From Flavobacteriales bacterium (lineage in GTDB: Bacteria; Bacteroidota; Bacteroidia; Flavobacteriales_D; Crocinitomicaceae): a DNA stretch of 47,359 nt. Each line of letters opens with the position of its first letter. The stretch's first letter is position 1. The notes beneath the pieces were generated by a model that saw only the letters and a program-made list of their open reading frames with translations, was not told the origin of the DNA and searched no databases. The stretch lies in assembly GCA_947463385.1 (NCBI GenBank), contig CANHSL010000010.1, forward strand, positions 1 to 47,359. Direction: 5' to 3'. Positions 31,684-40,381 of this stretch are shown piece after piece. The position numbers and the translations under genes were made by a program.

Positions 31684-32427
31684 ATGAAAAAACTGTTACT
31701 TTCTTTTGCTGCAATCGGACTTATAGCATTGTCGGTTGACGCACAATCATGTACCCCAGGTGCAAATTATGTGGATTCTACATACGGTGTATGGCCTGAT
31801 ACCACACAAAATTTTCCTCCAGCAGCGGCAAACGTTGCGTATTCTACAGACTTGAACTTTAAAGTGCCCGCAACGGTATCAGCTGAATTAGATGCCTCAG
31901 GACAATTTGTTGGTTCACCAATTCAAGGATTTACAGTAACCGGCGTTTTAGGATTGCCAAGTGGTTACAACTATGCGTGTAACATCGCAAGCTGTACCTA
32001 TGCGGGTGGAGCTAATGGATGCGCCAATGTATACGGAACTACAGCGAATACAGGAACGTATCCGATTACGATTGAAGTAGATGCAACGGTAATGGTTACC
32101 TTAATCCCTGGTTTGCCAGCTACACCAGTTACACAAAGTGTTTCTTTTGGTGGATATAAAATCAATGTTGGTACTGCGGGATTGATTACATCCGTAGTAG
32201 AGCCCTTATCTATTTATCCTAATCCTTCAAACGGACAAGTTTCTATCAAAGGAATTGTTGCAGATGAACTTACCATTACAAACTTAAATGGCCAAGTGAT
32301 TTTGACTAAAAATGTATCTGGTCAAACACAAGCAACCCTTGATTTATCTTCACTAAACGCTGGCGTTTACTTTGTAAACACACTGGGCTCTTTAGGTAAA
32401 GAAACGATTCGATTTATTAAGAACTAA
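31684..32427 (+). CDS. Small secreted T9SS type A cargo protein
   Basis: This 247-residue protein has a clear signal peptide (MKKLLLSFAAIGLIALSVDAQ). Its beta-rich domain (about 22-165) is poor in charged residues and rich in Gly/Thr/Ala, with a four-cysteine segment (CNIASC ... GCANV). The final ~75 residues are a T9SS type A sorting domain (SIYPNPSNGQVSIKG ... LNAGVYFVNT ... IRFIKN). It is monocistronic, with its own -7 box and a strong palindromic terminator, a layout typical of a well-expressed secreted product. The N-terminal domain is not one I recognise. Confidence 0.85.
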   Translation: MKKLLLSFAAIGLIALSVDAQSCTPGANYVDSTYGVWPDTTQNFPPAAANVAYSTDLNFKVPATVSAELDASGQFVGSPIQGFTVTGVLGLPSGYNYACNIASCTYAGGANGCANVYGTTANTGTYPITIEVDATVMVTLIPGLPATPVTQSVSFGGYKINVGTAGLITSVVEPLSIYPNPSNGQVSIKGIVADELTITNLNGQVILTKNVSGQTQATLDLSSLNAGVYFVNTLGSLGKETIRFIKN

Positions 32428-32445
32428 GGTTCTAATACCACATTT

Positions 32446-32470
32446 AAAAGGCCGCAATTGCGGCCTTTTT
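32446..32470. terminator. Bidirectional intrinsic terminator
   Basis: A perfect palindrome (AAAAGGCCGCAA / TTGCGGCCTTTT, 32446-32469) forms a GGCCGC/GCGGCC stem around an AATT loop, followed by a long T-run on the plus strand and flanked by A's for the minus strand. It serves both the T9SS gene (+) and the Omp28-like gene (-). Confidence 0.92.
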
Positions 32471-32472
32471 TT

Positions 32473-33405
32473 TTATTCAATAGCTTGTTTTATCACCTGA
32501 TATATTTCCCATGTGGTTTTATCATAAACGTAAACCAAGACATGCATATTAGATGCATTGTGGGTTCCATTCAGTTGATTTGGAACAGCGAAACTATAAT
32601 TCACATAGTACTTATCCCCGATTAGATCAGCGCTAATAAGTGTGCGGCCAAACGGCGTATTATTCAAATTACCCCGATGGATATCGCGGTGGATGTAGGA
32701 TGAATTGTGTGAGTTGTCACTCATTTTTTGATCACCAACTAAGGAGTCTTCAACCAAACAAGCAACAATGCCTAATTCTGAAGATATTGTTTGATCTATT
32801 TTTTCTACTTCCACGTGCAAAAATGCGCCTTTCGTACTCGGGTAATAATTAAGGGCTGATTGTATATTAACTTTTAACTCATTTTGTGCTAGTACATTCG
32901 AAACCATTCCGGTCCATGCCCCTGGACTTTGGAAAATCACACCGCCGTTATTAATTCTTGACACGGTTCCACGTGGGTTTCCAACAAAGCCGCCATCATT
33001 AATCCCAAAATACTGTGCAATTGCCAAGCCATCTGTTGTAGTGAAATCTAAAGGGTATTCTGGAAGGGTTATCGTTTGAAAATCACCAATCCCGGTTGGA
33101 CCGGCATGAATGGACAAAGGAAAAACACGGCCCGGATTTGCTTCGTATAAGGCATGCGCAAGGTCAGCGGCGGCAGGACAATAAATACACTTATGCCCTG
33201 TGAAATCTTCTAACAGGATATTTCTATTCACATTCGTGTTTAGCGAAAATTGTGGCCACTCATTGGCTAGATAATCCGACCAATTACCGGGATACAGTGT
33301 GGTATCCAATCCATTCGTGGACCCTGGTGGATATGGATTAGTAACGTGATCGCAACTGTAGCTCACAATAAGTAGCGCCAAAAAACACCATAACAATCGA
33401 TTCAT
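32473..33405 (-). CDS. Omp28-related lipoprotein with thioredoxin-like CxxC
   Basis: This 310-residue protein has a lipoprotein-type signal with Cys18 (IVSYSC). From about residue 62 it matches the Omp28-like family, whose core is thioredoxin-like: 'ILLEDFTGHKCIYCPAAA' carries the Cys73-x-x-Cys76 pair, followed by 'FPLSIHAG', a cis-Pro-type 'GNPRGTVSRI' and a C-terminal beta-sandwich. It is likely at the outer membrane. It starts 3 bp after the DUF6029 gene, downstream of a TlpA-like thioredoxin, so the operon combines two thiol proteins with a predicted barrel. The bidirectional terminator at 32446-32470 follows it. Confidence 0.88.
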   Translation of the reverse strand: MNRLLWCFLALLIVSYSCDHVTNPYPPGSTNGLDTTLYPGNWSDYLANEWPQFSLNTNVNRNILLEDFTGHKCIYCPAAADLAHALYEANPGRVFPLSIHAGPTGIGDFQTITLPEYPLDFTTTDGLAIAQYFGINDGGFVGNPRGTVSRINNGGVIFQSPGAWTGMVSNVLAQNELKVNIQSALNYYPSTKGAFLHVEVEKIDQTISSELGIVACLVEDSLVGDQKMSDNSHNSSYIHRDIHRGNLNNTPFGRTLISADLIGDKYYVNYSFAVPNQLNGTHNASNMHVLVYVYDKTTWEIYQVIKQAIE

Positions 33406-33408
33406 TTC

Positions 33409-35100
33409 TTAAAAACTTTGAGTGAAACTTAAGGTAAGGCCATTGTTGGCGGGTACAAAACGACAAACGCCACCTACACAAAACAATCCGGCCCGTTGAC
33501 GCCCATAGGAAAGCATAACACGTGTCGATTCATGAATATAACCGCAGGTGAGGTTTGGATAATTTACACGCTTATTTGCGTCTGGATTACCATAATTATA
33601 TTGGTTGATGAAACTTACAAAATAGCTTGGTGAAACCGTATATTCTATTAATGCTGTAGCCCAATTCCCTTTATCATTAATCGCTCCATCATCTTTCTTG
33701 TTTACAAACATTCCTTGAAGTTCAACGCGAATGTTGTGTTTTGAATTGATTTTATAGGACGCTTCTACCACACCAATATGAGACGAAATAATACCCGTTG
33801 CATCATTGGAAACTTTAGCGATATCATTATTAATGGTAATATTAAAATAAGACACTAAAAGGAGGAGTTTCTTGTTAATTCTTCGCGTGATGTTTACATT
33901 AATGTCTCTCCAATATAAACTATCGCTTTTGTCGAATAGATGGGTTTCATATGCTACACGGCTAGAATCAAACTGATTAATACCACTGGTATGCTGCACT
34001 GGGCGATACGTTGTGGATGCATTAACTCCGAGCGTAGTTCCGTATTTTCCACCCAGTTTGGAACCTTTCTTAATGGTGTATAAAAAATCTGCTTGATATG
34101 CCACCTCTCCCAATGGTTGTGTTGCATAGGGATACAGTGTAGCCACCAAATTGTAGGTATGGGTTTTATTGAGTGCAGGAAGGTAATTGATAAAAACGTC
34201 TTGAAGTTCTTTATTCCGGTCTGAGCGATAGCTCATGTTATCGACTGATTTTGCAGATAGACTAAAGCCAATACCTTTCTTAGAATAGCCAAAGTTTACT
34301 ACCGCCGCGTGGCCAAAATTGTAGATTTTACCATTATCCAACGAAGGGTCTTGTTCTTTTTGAATGTACTCCCCATCTAAACGAAAGTTCTTATACTGTA
34401 ATTTCATTCGTCCACCGTAAGCACCAACATTCTCAGGTAAAACCAATTGATCATCGTCATCTATTTGGTATTTACTGACGAAACTTCCTCCTAGAATTAC
34501 ATCTAATGGAAATGCGCTGAGTTTAGCAAAGGTTTCATTTAAATGAATATCGGCATCTATACCGCGCACAATTCCATCTGAATTAACAACACGACCCGCT
34601 TCAAATGAAAGCCGTTGTTGACCATATACTCCCTTGATTTGAATTCCCTTGAATGGTTTGAAAATAATGCGGGCGCCGTCTAAAACATTATCATAGCCTA
34701 ATGCGCGGTCTTCATAAGCTCTAAGTGCTAGGCCATTACCAAACTGCTCATAAAAATGTCCAAGGGTGACATCCACTTTTGAATTCGAGTAGCCCACATA
34801 ACGCATACCGAGTCCCGTTCCGTCAAAGCGATTTGGATACCCTTGAATTCGGGGCAAATAACTCTCTAAGCGCATCCCTGCTTTAAAGCCCGCATTCGTG
34901 TAAAAAACATTCATATACGAATTCACCAATCCTTTTGATGGAGGTTGAATGGCATTAATAACGGGGTCGTCATTCAAATACTGAAACGTAGATTCAATAT
35001 TCCCGGTAAAATTGCCTTGCGACCATATAAACTGTCCGAAAAAAACAGTTATAAGTAAAAGTACCCCGCTATTCGATGGTAAGTTTTTTAATTTCTTCAT
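33409..35100 (-). CDS. DUF6029 outer-membrane protein
   Basis: The protein has 563 residues from the ATG at 35100, chosen for the signal peptide (MKKLKNLPSNSGVLLLITVF, cleavage near WSQ) and the A-rich upstream sequence; an ATG at 35115 is also possible. The mature protein begins 'GNFTGNIESTFQYLNDD' and has alternating aromatic strands throughout, ending 'LTLSFTQSF' with a C-terminal Phe, as expected for an outer-membrane barrel. Regions such as 'VTLGHFYEQFGNGLALRAYEDR' and 'DNVLDGARI' match what I recall of DUF6029. It overlaps the TlpA-like gene by 32 bp. The function is unknown. Confidence 0.8.
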   Translation of the reverse strand: MKKLKNLPSNSGVLLLITVFFGQFIWSQGNFTGNIESTFQYLNDDPVINAIQPPSKGLVNSYMNVFYTNAGFKAGMRLESYLPRIQGYPNRFDGTGLGMRYVGYSNSKVDVTLGHFYEQFGNGLALRAYEDRALGYDNVLDGARIIFKPFKGIQIKGVYGQQRLSFEAGRVVNSDGIVRGIDADIHLNETFAKLSAFPLDVILGGSFVSKYQIDDDDQLVLPENVGAYGGRMKLQYKNFRLDGEYIQKEQDPSLDNGKIYNFGHAAVVNFGYSKKGIGFSLSAKSVDNMSYRSDRNKELQDVFINYLPALNKTHTYNLVATLYPYATQPLGEVAYQADFLYTIKKGSKLGGKYGTTLGVNASTTYRPVQHTSGINQFDSSRVAYETHLFDKSDSLYWRDINVNITRRINKKLLLLVSYFNITINNDIAKVSNDATGIISSHIGVVEASYKINSKHNIRVELQGMFVNKKDDGAINDKGNWATALIEYTVSPSYFVSFINQYNYGNPDANKRVNYPNLTCGYIHESTRVMLSYGRQRAGLFCVGGVCRFVPANNGLTLSFTQSF

Positions 35101-35581
35101 ATAGTTTTTCTTCATCCCCTGGCGCGTAATTGTTGTGTGTGTACACAATGTTTCCGTTTTTGTCTAGTAAAAACGTATGAGGAACATTATTAACACCCAT
35201 GCTTCGCTTGAAATCGCCGTTAGGATCTAACAATACCGTATAATCCCATGCCTTACCATTCACATAGGTAATTACATCGCGCTTTGTTTTTTCATCATCT
35301 ATAGATACCGCCACTAAGTTTACACCGGTTTCTGTTTGCCATTCTTCATAAAGGTCATGAATTGCCATTAATTCTTTTTTACATGGCGCACACCATGTTG
35401 CCCAAAAACTAATAACCACGGGTCCGGTAAAACCAAAAGCAGCGGTATTAACCTCTTTTCCATTGATGTCCTTCAACAGCACGGAAGGGACTTTTTTCAC
35501 GTCCAAAGAATCTGATTTTATAAGTTGCGTTTTAGCAAGAAAAGGTAAGCTTATCAAAAATGCTATTAATAAATGTTTCAT
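35069..35581 (-). CDS. TlpA-like secreted thioredoxin-fold oxidoreductase
   Basis: This 170-residue protein has a signal peptide (about 1-18). Its thioredoxin fold follows the TlpA/ResA pattern: 'FTGPVVISFWATWCAPCKKE' with active-site Cys64 and Cys67, 'VAVSIDDEKTKRDV', and the cis-proline loop 'VNNVPHTFLLDKNG'. Such proteins act outside the cytoplasm, usually reducing disulfides in cytochrome c biogenesis or in other envelope proteins. As the first gene of the TlpA-DUF6029-Omp28 operon it may serve its own neighbours, in particular the CxxC of the Omp28-like lipoprotein. Confidence 0.9.
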   Translation of the reverse strand: MKHLLIAFLISLPFLAKTQLIKSDSLDVKKVPSVLLKDINGKEVNTAAFGFTGPVVISFWATWCAPCKKELMAIHDLYEEWQTETGVNLVAVSIDDEKTKRDVITYVNGKAWDYTVLLDPNGDFKRSMGVNNVPHTFLLDKNGNIVYTHNNYAPGDEEKLYEEIKKLTIE

Positions 35582-35662
35582 ACGTTGTTAAATTTTCGTG
35601 TGCTTAGCAAATACTTTGCCATTCCAAATTTACACGAAAAAAGAATATTTCTATGTTATGCA

Positions 35663-35693
35663 TTTGGAAACCATCGTATTTTTCTTAACTTTG
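35663..35693 (+). promoter_or_regulatory. Complete Bacteroidota promoter: TTTG (35663-35666), N19, TAACTTTG (35686-35693)
   Basis: This is the best promoter match in the window, with both consensus elements exact and 19 bp between them. The ATG of the T9SS gene at 35714 lies 20 nt downstream, which also supports that start over upstream in-frame codons. Confidence 0.75.
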
Positions 35694-35713
35694 ATAAGAA
35701 TGAAATTCACTAT

Positions 35714-36475
35714 ATGACAAAAATTTACTCCCTCCTTTTTACTTTGTTTTTCATATCGTCTTTCTTTGCACAAGACAATCTTGTAATATATCTTGACGGA
35801 CAAACCACGGACCTTTCATCTGGCGGCGGACCTCACATGGTTGCGGCACCATCTGCAGCAGCATTTGACGTTACCTTCAACGTATACAACAATGCGGCAA
35901 ATACTCAAAAATGGAGAATTACTAGATCACACATATCTGTTCCAGCAGGCTGGGCAGACGGTTTATGTTGGGGGCATGCAACCGATCCGTTTGGCGGTTC
36001 TTGTTACTCAAGTACTCAAATGAACTCCTCGCCATGGACTTCACCAGGTGGTGCAGCCGTACTTTTTGATCTTTTACCCGGAGAGTATGGAAAAATGAAA
36101 CCTGATTTTAATCCTGCTGACGGAATAAGCGGAACGGGTCATTATCGCTATTATATTACAAATGCATCGGGCACGACGTATTTAGATTCCGTGGATGTAA
36201 TTGTTGATTATGTAGCGGATGTGAAGCCTCTAAAAGACCCAGTAACGGTTACCTTGGTTCCGAATCCTGCGGATGATTATATTAATATTACTGTAAGTGG
36301 TGCAGAATCTTTTCAGTTTAAAATATTGGATGCGATGGGTTCCACCATCATGCGCGACCAAGTGAGTTCAACAAAAAAAATAAATACGTCTGAATTCAAA
36401 AGTGGCGTTTACTTTATTTCTTTTGAAGGGCAATCAACTAAACCGTTCACTAGAAAAGTAATCATTCGCCATTAA
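35714..36475 (+). CDS. Small secreted T9SS type A cargo protein
   Basis: The protein has 253 residues from the ATG at 35714, giving the signal peptide MTKIYSLLFTLFFISSFFAQ. The N-terminal domain (about 21-165) is a single beta-sandwich-like unit ('AFDVTFNVYNNAANTQKWRI', 'ISVPAGWADGLCWGH', 'LLPGEYGKMKPDFNP') with a Cys pair (DGLCWGH, GGSCYSS) that could form a disulfide. The C-terminal ~70 residues are a T9SS sorting domain (TLVPNPADDYINITVSG ... FKSGVYFISF ... KVIIRH). It is transcribed from the consensus promoter at 35663-35693; rnr begins 11 bp downstream and could be read through. The function is unknown. Confidence 0.85.
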   Translation: MTKIYSLLFTLFFISSFFAQDNLVIYLDGQTTDLSSGGGPHMVAAPSAAAFDVTFNVYNNAANTQKWRITRSHISVPAGWADGLCWGHATDPFGGSCYSSTQMNSSPWTSPGGAAVLFDLLPGEYGKMKPDFNPADGISGTGHYRYYITNASGTTYLDSVDVIVDYVADVKPLKDPVTVTLVPNPADDYINITVSGAESFQFKILDAMGSTIMRDQVSSTKKINTSEFKSGVYFISFEGQSTKPFTRKVIIRH

Positions 36476-38640: not shown

Positions 38641-40347
38641 TTATTCAGGAGAAAATGGATTACCACTGGAAACACGCTGTAATTCGTGTCCTTTTCTGAA
38701 CATTTTTTGTGTTATTGGCTTTCCGTTGCTGCCATAAACAATGAATAACCCATCTTTCAACCCGTTCTTATAGTGGATTTCATTCATTTTATTTCCCCGA
38801 CGATCATTTTGATAAAATTCACCATGAAGCAGTCCATTTTTAAATGTTGAAACCACGGCGGGTACAACTCCTCCAGGATAAAAATTAATCCACTTACCAA
38901 CCTTCTTTCCTAAATGATATTTTCCCGACTCTTTAATTGCAAAGTCAAGCTGAGAATATGCTTTATAGAACCCGTGCTCTACGCTTTGTTTTTCTTTAAA
39001 CCCTAAGGCAACGACATCTTGTGACGCATTTTTTAGCGTTTTAACCTTGTAAGAAACCTCTTCTTTTTTCCTTCCATTGTTATAGAATTCGGTCCATTTC
39101 CCCGTCTTATTACCGTGCTTATAGCGACCAAATAACAGTAATTTTCCTTCTGGACTAAACGAATACCATGCGCCATGAAGTTTACCTTCCTTATAGAAGG
39201 ACGTATTCTTAACCCTCCCATTTGGCCAAAAATTCTTCCACTCCCCCTCTTCTTCCCCGCGATTATACGCCCCTTGAAGCAATATCGTACCGTCTTCATA
39301 CCATGTCTGCCAAAGGCCTTGTTTCAAATCGGATTCATATTTCCCTTTTTTAAAGGGCGTACCATCCTTGTAATAATAATTCCACTCACCCGCCTTTAAT
39401 CCATTATCAAACGATGCAGTATAAGAAAGTTCCCCAGAGGAATAATAATAAGTCCAAACACCCTGTTGTAAATTAGATTTGAACATTCCCTTCATGTCTT
39501 CACCACCATCCAATCTTCTCCAAATCCAAGTCCCTTCCTTTTTACCCAATTGATAACTTCCTTCCGTTTGCAACACCCCGTTTTCAAAATACACTTGATA
39601 GGATCCGTCTAATGAATCTTGAATGAAACTTTGCTGTTTTTCGATGTTCCCATTCGGAAAATAGAACAGCCACTTGCCCTGTTTTTTACCACCAGAAAAC
39701 GCGCCTTCAATCGACGGTCTTCCGGAGGCCAGTAATTCAAAAAAGGGGCCATCTCTTAATCCATTATTAAACGTATATGATTCTTTAATCCCACCATACG
39801 TATAATATGTATTCACCTGTCCTTTGCCGGCAACAACCGTCTGCGTGTGCAACGAATCATTCTCAAAATAATCCAACAAATACGTGGTGTCATTTCTGAC
39901 TAATTCAGTTTTCCATCTTGACGCATCGCTGTAGTTATAATTCCATATGCCCTCAGGGGAGCCCAACTGATAATTACCTTGAATTAGCAAGATGCCTTTT
40001 TCATTATATTCTTTAAAGGTAGAATCGGGCACATTAAATTGAGCAAAATACTGTTGTTTAATTTGTTTGTTTGGAAAGTAGGTGGTTTGTTTGCCATGCA
40101 TACGATTTCGATAAAAAAACCGCTCCTCTTCGATTGAACCATCAAGGGCATAGAATGTCCATTTTCCGTGTTTTTCGGTAGTTGTTGGATTGATTTCGTC
40201 CAAGTAATAGGATCCTGTAGAATGAATTCTTTTGTTATTAGCATCCCAAAACACCTTTGCTTTGGGGCCCAGATTTTCAGGTAAAACCCTTTGAGCGTGT
40301 AAGGCTTGGCTCAGGGACACAAGAAAAAAGAGCCACAAATACTTCAT
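38641..40347 (-). CDS. Secreted MORN-2 repeat protein
   Basis: The protein has 568 residues from the ATG at 40347, which gives the signal peptide MKYLWLFFLVSLSQALHAQ; an ATG at 40374 would add nine residues. Nearly the whole mature protein is about 20 repeats of ~23 residues of the MORN-2 type ('GKWTFYALDGSIEEE', 'GVWTYYYSSGELSYTASFDN', 'GEWNYYYKDGTPFKKGKYES'). Automatic annotation often names such proteins 'YwqK family antitoxin', but there is no toxin partner here and the protein is secreted. It is probably a periplasmic or outer-membrane-associated beta-repeat scaffold. It follows the LysE-type gene by 34 bp on the same strand. Confidence 0.85.
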   Translation of the reverse strand: MKYLWLFFLVSLSQALHAQRVLPENLGPKAKVFWDANNKRIHSTGSYYLDEINPTTTEKHGKWTFYALDGSIEEERFFYRNRMHGKQTTYFPNKQIKQQYFAQFNVPDSTFKEYNEKGILLIQGNYQLGSPEGIWNYNYSDASRWKTELVRNDTTYLLDYFENDSLHTQTVVAGKGQVNTYYTYGGIKESYTFNNGLRDGPFFELLASGRPSIEGAFSGGKKQGKWLFYFPNGNIEKQQSFIQDSLDGSYQVYFENGVLQTEGSYQLGKKEGTWIWRRLDGGEDMKGMFKSNLQQGVWTYYYSSGELSYTASFDNGLKAGEWNYYYKDGTPFKKGKYESDLKQGLWQTWYEDGTILLQGAYNRGEEEGEWKNFWPNGRVKNTSFYKEGKLHGAWYSFSPEGKLLLFGRYKHGNKTGKWTEFYNNGRKKEEVSYKVKTLKNASQDVVALGFKEKQSVEHGFYKAYSQLDFAIKESGKYHLGKKVGKWINFYPGGVVPAVVSTFKNGLLHGEFYQNDRRGNKMNEIHYKNGLKDGLFIVYGSNGKPITQKMFRKGHELQRVSSGNPFSPE

Positions 40348-40381
40348 AAAAACAAAACGGAGAGGCTTATACATGTTACAT

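Follow-up and report, generated by a model that had tools for sequence, protein, structure and literature searches.

The conserved tlpA, DUF6029 and omp28 gene trio of Bacteroidota, a candidate outer-membrane thiol-disulfide module

Genes and features of the locus

The window analyzed here, a 47,359-nt stretch of contig CANHSL010000010.1 from a Crocinitomicaceae bacterium of the Flavobacteriales (assembly GCA_947463385.1), carries three minus-strand genes between positions 32,473 and 35,581, which encode a TlpA-like thioredoxin, an outer-membrane beta-barrel of the DUF6029 family and an Omp28-type lipoprotein. This trio may constitute a thiol-disulfide module at the outer membrane. All three open reading frames lie in the order tlpA - DUF6029 - omp28 at the places given in an earlier note on this DNA, and the spacing described there (a 32-bp overlap between tlpA and the DUF6029 gene, a 3-bp gap between the DUF6029 gene and omp28) was confirmed. 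The cysteines that it had assigned, Cys64/Cys67 of TlpA (CAPC) and Cys73/Cys76 of Omp28 (CIYC), were also correct. The features of the locus are:

35069..35581, minus strand: tlpA, secreted TlpA/ResA-like thioredoxin of 170 amino acids (aa) (AhpC-TSA match)
35381..35392, minus strand: CAPC active site of TlpA, Cys64-Cys67 (read from the translation)
33409..35100, minus strand: DUF6029 outer-membrane barrel of 563 aa, about 24 predicted strands (PF19494)
33463..33480, minus strand: barrel cysteine pair C541-V-G-G-V-C546 in the last hairpin, on a predicted extracellular loop (CX4C conservation and model)
32473..33405, minus strand: omp28, HBP35-like thioredoxin-plus-immunoglobulin (Ig) lipoprotein of 310 aa (PF11551 and model)
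33178..33189, minus strand: CIYC of Omp28, Cys73-Cys76 (N-terminus of helix 76-89 in the model)
33352..33354, minus strand: lipobox Cys18 of Omp28 (column conservation)
32446..32469, strand '.': terminator-like palindromic hairpin between omp28 and the convergent gene

The DUF6029 start is the ATG that gives the overlap with tlpA; alternative starts are possible at 35115 (in-frame ATG) and 35148 (TTG). A promoter scan found no sigma-70-like promoter on the minus strand of the region. Terminator-like sites number 3 in the region versus 3.1 expected in shuffled sequence, and the single such site within the trio on its own strand has a 5-pair stem.

The tlpA product matches the AhpC-TSA family of Pfam with 81.9 bits (cut-off 26) and carries the thioredoxin motif WCAPC, which places it among the TlpA/ResA-type proteins. 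Its top NCBIfam match is ResA (NF002854) with 81.5 bits, under the cut-off of 170, and it is thus not ResA itself; its best solved relative is 2m72 (138 bits). Both active-site cysteines are invariant in 128/128 upstream homologues (incomplete and identical proteins were excluded from the TlpA, Omp28 and barrel alignments).

The barrel belongs to PF19494 (E=3.3e-178, 594.1 bits versus a cut-off of 27, profile positions 14-538 of 538). An alignment of 145 non-identical DUF6029 proteins shows two conserved cysteine columns and no more, Cys541 (144/145) and Cys546 (143/145), which form the motif CxxGxC; the third-best cysteine column reaches 37/145. A CX4C lies within the last 45 residues in 143/145 proteins, and the two barrels lacking it are broken copies, one with an ambiguous base and the tail matched in another frame (L029) and one truncated (L030). 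In 36 diverse DUF6029 tails, both cysteines are among the five invariant columns. The AlphaFold2 model of the barrel has a mean pLDDT (predicted local distance difference test) of 86.6, falling to about 60 in the cysteine loop, and 24 long strands were counted by eye. Long and short loops mostly alternate, with the presumed periplasmic turns 186-199 and 343-355 longer than this scheme predicts. The cysteine pair sits on a long loop ahead of the last strand, where strands 538-542 and 545-549 of the model put the two cysteines opposite each other around a GG turn. Because this loop is a long one in the alternation, the pair is predicted to be on the extracellular side. Whole-barrel matches in the PDB (Foldseek, VIA-align) are to large barrels in general, with 6-16% identity among the rows shown, and include the FimD pore (Z 17.7, root-mean-square deviation (rmsd) 4.4 over 372 residues), Occ/OprD channels and AlgE. 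No Pfam match of the barrel to a TonB-receptor family was found.

That the CX4C tail is a common barrel feature, to be expected in other barrels too, was considered and rejected: the strong matches of a 54-position tail profile among 296 Bacteroidota genomes (at most 22 candidates per genome scored) were DUF6029 genes, and five of the seven weak matches lie in frames with stops. A strict CX4C DNA pattern occurs at four extra places in the own genome, three of them in frames of 5, 12 and 36 residues and the fourth in a 354-residue frame with more cysteines, taken as ferredoxin-like. Damaged copies were also seen. One genome (G226, locus L164) has a truncated barrel of 372 aa with the cysteine tail missing, and in another a barrel-tail match (G140:C8:13648-13806) contains two stops; the trio seems to be decaying in these lineages.

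The omp28 product is a member of PF11551 (55.3 bits versus a cut-off of 34.9), with the match spanning residues 142-309 only; the thioredoxin part with the CxxC lies ahead of it, outside the Pfam match. It is related to the NCBIfam family of Omp28 outer-membrane lipoproteins (NF033782) at 106.7 bits, under the cut-off of 150 for membership, and falls outside the Omp28-related selenoprotein family (NF045500; 28.4 bits, cut-off 200), the window protein having two cysteines in its CIYC. The CxxC is invariant in 113/113 non-identical complete downstream proteins. The earlier note had named a poorly conserved or buried Omp28 CxxC as a weak point of its idea; conservation is settled by this count, and as to burial the model places the motif at the start of the active-site helix. 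The model (mean pLDDT 92.0) shows strand 63-69, then CIYC, helix 76-89 and later Pro144, which is invariant (44/44) and stands just before strand 145-148 at the cis-proline position, so the N-terminal part is modeled in the thioredoxin arrangement with cis-proline. By VIA-align, its best PDB match is HBP35 of Porphyromonas gingivalis (5y1a; Z 23.2, rmsd 2.6, 225 residues aligned, model range 57-310), with further matches to 2axo (Z 18.1) and to 2r2c, the solved domain of P. gingivalis Omp28 (Z 9.5). As modeled, the protein is HBP35-like, with a thioredoxin domain bearing the CxxC followed by an Ig-like domain. A short Omp28 paralogue of 236-270 aa without CxxC lies upstream of and adjoining tlpA in five loci (L117, L118, L119, L122 and L124) and is perhaps a non-catalytic partner.

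The way in which Omp28 is anchored differs among lineages. Cys18 of the lipobox and Asp19 are invariant (44/44), and the family motif after the lipobox is CD[HKR][VI][ED]. Among 113 operon Omp28 proteins, 100 have the lipobox-column cysteine, none of these with a type IX tail pattern, and 11 of the remaining 13 have such a pattern. Window Omp28 itself has no Por_Secre_tail match in Pfam at E 0.1 and in this respect is not HBP35-like. A type IX tail over the Pfam cut-off was confirmed in 5/6 distant operon Omp28 proteins and 4/6 further ones; of the remaining two in the latter set, L133 has the tail below the cut-off (24.5 versus 27 bits) and L138 has no match. Type IX secretion delivers its cargo to the cell surface or the exterior.

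Conservation and linkage in Bacteroidota

A sample of 296 Bacteroidota genomes, drawn evenly from the phylum of the window, was searched for the trio. DUF6029 matches were retrieved from 80 genomes; one (G227: 644 aa, E 7.6e-4, below the cut-off, no cysteine tail) was dropped as false, and one below the cut-off (G183) was kept because its tail matches at 1e-20, leaving 79. Around each barrel, every frame of at least 70 aa was scored with TlpA and Omp28 profiles built from related loci, and a CxxC was tallied anywhere in the matching protein. In 71/79 genomes TlpA is either fused to the barrel or encoded no more than 3 kb from it; a second CxxC thioredoxin-like match is found within that distance in 71/79 as well, and both are present in 65/79. 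The trio, on whose conservation across Bacteroidota the earlier note had staked its idea, is thus conserved. In G038 and G100, the nearer downstream thioredoxin was taken as TlpA by the script, with the tallies the same. Chance adjacency was considered and rejected, the own genome having 16 AhpC/TSA-family places in 2.6 Mb. One genome (G180) has two operon copies (L127 and L128), of which L128 was excluded from the linkage tally.

The link between TlpA and the barrel is close. The best score for the TlpA subfamily (at most 12 candidates per genome scored) is at least 158 bits in 79/296 genomes, exactly the DUF6029 set, and at most 123 bits in all others; the TlpA profile (A4) contains rows from sample genomes, with 8 unlinked TlpAs outside its training set. 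The 8 DUF6029 genomes without a neighbouring TlpA all carry it elsewhere (158-218 bits). In one case (G216) TlpA lies at base 7 of one contig, with Omp28 matches beside it, and the barrel is 203 bases from the end of another; the two are separated because contig ends intervene. A natural TlpA-DUF6029 fusion was found in one genome (G292; L157:5939-7942) as a single 667-aa frame with one N-terminal signal-like stretch, with omp28 94 bp away. The TlpA domain is N-terminal to the barrel in this fusion, and the N-terminus of an outer-membrane barrel faces the periplasm. Gene order and strand shift among lineages with the genes staying close: tlpA is divergent in L031 and L115, omp28 is divergent beyond tlpA in L153, L154 and L164, and Omp28 genes lie upstream of the barrel in L116-L120 and L122-L125.

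Omp28 follows the barrel as well. The domain search was positive in 62 of the 296 genomes, with 58 having both domains, 22 DUF6029 only, 4 Omp28 only and 212 neither (Fisher p 4e-38, with G227 still included and relatedness uncorrected), and 138/144 Omp28-domain matches are in DUF6029 genomes. These counts are lower bounds, since the search missed the second Omp28 of the own genome and the copy in G123. That second protein of the own genome (L002, G000:C9) has 669 aa, CQWC at 340 and a type IX tail. Outside the barrel locus, 20 regions (one of them in G156) and L002 together contain 25 Omp28-family frames that pass E 1e-6; 23/25 have a CxxC and 16/25 exceed 600 aa. Ten long unlinked Omp28 proteins scanned by Pfam all have a type IX tail, 3 of them over the cut-off. 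Omp28-type thioredoxins, many of them probably surface cargo, thus accompany the TlpA-barrel pair.

A Redoxin-type thioredoxin takes the place of Omp28 in about 20 genomes. All 21 genomes with DUF6029 and no Omp28 in the domain search have a second CxxC protein within 3 kb of the barrel. In one of them (G123) Omp28 is present on direct scan; from the other 20, partners of 12 genomes were scanned, and 14/14 are of the Redoxin/AhpC-TSA type, 0 match Omp28 and 6/14 have a type IX tail over the cut-off. By locus, a Redoxin-type CxxC protein is present in 12/12 scanned loci without Omp28 near the barrel. Several Omp28-lacking lineages carry two such proteins, one without a tail (about 175 aa) and one with a tail (about 270 aa). 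Overall, 33/79 genomes encode, within 3 kb of the barrel, a CxxC thioredoxin-like protein that bears the tail pattern.

The closest relatives, with barrels 92-96% identical, are metagenome bins from Flavobacteriales, among them Crocinitomicaceae and Cryomorphaceae. Of the related loci, 46 are at least 13 kb long and have a barrel less than 75% identical; blastp matches to all three trio proteins were found in 46/46, anywhere in the locus. Flanking genes in the same loci were matched in 5 (ksgA), 5 (DUF4286), 0 (a 470-aa gene), 5 (the convergent type IX protein), 7 (the MORN gene), 15 (rnr) and 30 (the divergent type IX protein); a few neighbours are thus kept too, and the last count may reflect the common tail domain.

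The convergent neighbour (31684-32427, plus strand) has a type IX tail and four cysteines (23, 99, 104, 113); it is a conceivable disulfide client, yet is present in just 10/51 long related loci. The divergent neighbour (35573-36475, plus strand) has a type IX tail and three cysteines and is matched in 35/51 long related loci, perhaps via the tail; its listed ATG overlaps the tlpA 5' end, and a start near 35714 looks better. A 577-aa protein with MORN-variant repeats is encoded at 38641-40374 on the minus strand. Eight flanking window proteins were scanned, and no iron gene and no polysaccharide-export, OPX or capsule gene was found among them. SprA_N was detected in 78/79 DUF6029 genomes versus 228/296 overall (Fisher p about 1e-9). 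A link between the trio and type IX secretion was rejected as confounded by descent, the SprA-negative genomes clustering in few families. In the one SprA-negative DUF6029 genome (G230), the Omp28 partner is 689 aa long and begins with a lipobox-like stretch.

Interpretation of the trio and rival explanations

Taken together, the conservation, the linkage, the fusion, the cysteine invariance, the fold of the Omp28 model and the anchoring signals of the partner favour reading the trio as a thiol-disulfide module of the outer membrane, in which the barrel disulfide would be the hub, with TlpA and an anchored thioredoxin around the barrel. We hold this reading with about even confidence. The earlier note had suggested a possible thiol system working by electron relay or redox-controlled maturation; a conserved redox module with two thioredoxin-like partners around a barrel is borne out, while the relay and the maturation stay two hypotheses between which the sequences do not decide. 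The case for the module is made stronger by features absent from that note: the barrel's own invariant cysteines, the TlpA-barrel fusion, the shared occurrence of the TlpA subfamily and the barrel in 79/79 genomes, the Redoxin-type substitutes for Omp28, and the choice between lipoprotein and type IX anchoring in the partner.

In the proposed mechanism, TlpA would be held reduced in the periplasm, presumably by a DsbD-type supply, and would work on the DUF6029 barrel. The only conserved cysteines of the barrel would be joined across the strands of the last hairpin by a disulfide that can open and reclose, located either on the outer face or within the lumen. The anchored thioredoxin, here the lipoprotein Omp28 and elsewhere type IX cargo or a Redoxin-type protein, would exchange thiols with this hairpin and hand redox equivalents to surface clients, including tailed Omp28/HBP35-type proteins. 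We infer that the three proteins react together, that the barrel pair is reversible and that the flow is reductive and outward; the passage of electrons across the outer membrane, and their direction, are likewise inferred. A DsbD-type protein encoded in the own genome is a possible electron source; on the oxidative side, a search for VKOR alone found none there. A relay across the outer membrane in its full form, in which TlpA reduces the barrel hairpin through the lumen of the wide, roughly 24-strand barrel and the hairpin reduces the surface-anchored thioredoxin, is put forward tentatively, as a possibility short of an even chance.

Several observations weigh against the module or parts of it. 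Some profiles were trained partly on genomes that were later scored. One genome (G156) has three Omp28 matches and no DUF6029, a clear exception; the matches in the other three Omp28-only genomes are weak (21-29 bits). In G009 and G263, the sole Omp28 beside the barrel has no CxxC. The hairpin disulfide can also be purely structural. The surface location of Omp28 is a further point. The published surface-export signal after the lipobox cysteine is of the type C-X-K-(D/E)2, Q-A-(D/E)2 or S-(D/E)n, as far as that source was consulted (PMC5080379), and by pattern it occurs in 0/100 operon Omp28 lipoproteins. Most of these share the family motif given above, and in 45/100 the residues at +2 to +6 carry a net charge of -2 or less. 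The export signal may differ in this clade, or, as the published one is missing, Omp28 of this genome may face the periplasm. From what is reported of HBP35, nothing positive came of testing it for protection against oxidative stress, and the protein complements an Escherichia coli dsbA mutant, a result cited from others (PMC2907840); because of this complementation, the direction of flow could be oxidative. An Omp28-related protein of Paraprevotella clara is required for trypsin degradation, with no thiol chemistry stated in the sections consulted (PMC9477747), which shows that the Omp28 family has other surface roles.

Among the alternatives, dedicated maturation survives best. The barrel would do another job, such as transport or export, and TlpA on the periplasmic side and Omp28 on the anchored side would be private enzymes forming, repairing or switching its hairpin disulfide, with no electron flow across the membrane to other clients. 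The invariant CX4C of the barrel, the presence of TlpA with the barrel in 79/79 genomes and the TlpA-barrel fusion are consistent with this, and disulfide-dependent assembly of a barrel is known from LptD. However, TlpA scores best with ResA/StoA-type enzymes rather than DsbA/DsbC, and maturation leaves unexplained why nearly all Omp28-domain proteins, also those encoded away from the barrel, occur in DUF6029 genomes. We consider it rather doubtful.

Uptake of heme, iron or another ligand, in which Omp28 would bind at the surface, the barrel conduct, and TlpA receive or reduce the ligand, appears unlikely. An hbp35 mutant is described as growing poorly without hemin (PMC2907840), and a 2026 preprint, in the parts consulted, proposes oxidative protection and iron uptake as the role of Muribaculaceae surface thioredoxins, some with an Ig-like fold (PMC13404670). 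Ligand binding, however, would not account for an invariant CxxC, the barrel lacks a TonB-receptor family match in Pfam, and the eight flanking proteins include no iron gene. Heme uptake in particular is made less likely by the reported binding of hemin by HBP35 even without its CxxC cysteines (PMC2907840).

That DUF6029 is a Wzi-kind polysaccharide-export porin with the thioredoxins as incidental neighbours is very improbable: a remark that many plug-less Wzi-like barrels show HHpred similarity to DUF6029 (PMC9603273, as far as consulted) and AlgE among the generic barrel matches favour it, but those structural matches are of low identity, the scanned neighbours include no polysaccharide-export gene, and the thioredoxin link holds in 79/79 genomes.

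Comparison with known systems

What is described of Gram-negative thiol chemistry takes place in the cytoplasm, at the inner membrane and in the periplasm. In agreement with the earlier note, which had called the pathway undescribed, a literature search that covered few subscription papers returned no description of the trio or of thiol transfer across the outer membrane. It found no on-topic paper on Omp28 together with TlpA, and none on Omp28 together with a selenoprotein. DUF6029 itself appears in the literature, as far as consulted, as a possible polysaccharide porin (PMC9603273). The components are thus of known kinds, and as far as our searches go no account exists of their being combined at the outer membrane, together with an invariant barrel cysteine pair.

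The closest parallel for Omp28 is HBP35, an outer-membrane/surface protein that likewise has a thioredoxin domain with CxxC followed by an Ig-like domain (5y1a). In the account consulted, HBP35 reduces insulin and mutating two cysteines abolishes the activity; the discussion describes what the thioredoxin domain does physiologically as unknown, without naming a source of electrons for it (PMC2907840). HBP35 differs in having a C-terminal surface-export domain and binding hemin (PMC2907840), whereas window Omp28 carries a lipobox cysteine, lacks a type IX tail match and stands in an operon with TlpA and a barrel. The Muribaculaceae proteins resemble the partners described here, comprising a thioredoxin and Ig-like fold with a type IX tail and an outer-membrane thioredoxin lipoprotein, but the terms TlpA and Omp28 are absent from the text consulted of that preprint (PMC13404670). 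The NF045500 selenoprotein is a related Omp28 protein, from which the window protein differs in scoring far under its cut-off and in having cysteines; that the family includes a selenoprotein may point to a catalytic role of the motif. Wzi-like OPX-linked polysaccharide porins are outer-membrane barrels too, and differ in that the trio has conserved thiol partners and scanned neighbours without an OPX or capsule gene.

Bacteroidota place thioredoxins outside the cell, of which HBP35 is one with measured activity, and the trio makes the question of their electron source and role testable. DUF6029 gains a functional hypothesis, and disulfide control at the outer membrane would become a field of its own. 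If the relay is true, it would answer what reduces surface thioredoxins such as HBP35, and the cell would be supplying its surface proteins with reducing power. DsbD and CcdA with TlpA, ResA or CcmG are the thiol relays of the inner membrane, in which a TlpA/ResA-type thioredoxin likewise works with a membrane protein having one cysteine pair, and the TlpA-barrel fusion is reminiscent of the fused thioredoxin domain of DsbD. The trio differs in its outer-membrane beta-barrel with predicted extracellular hairpin cysteines, whereas DsbD/CcdA is a helix bundle with the cysteines in membrane helices; a true relay would be the outer-membrane counterpart of DsbD.

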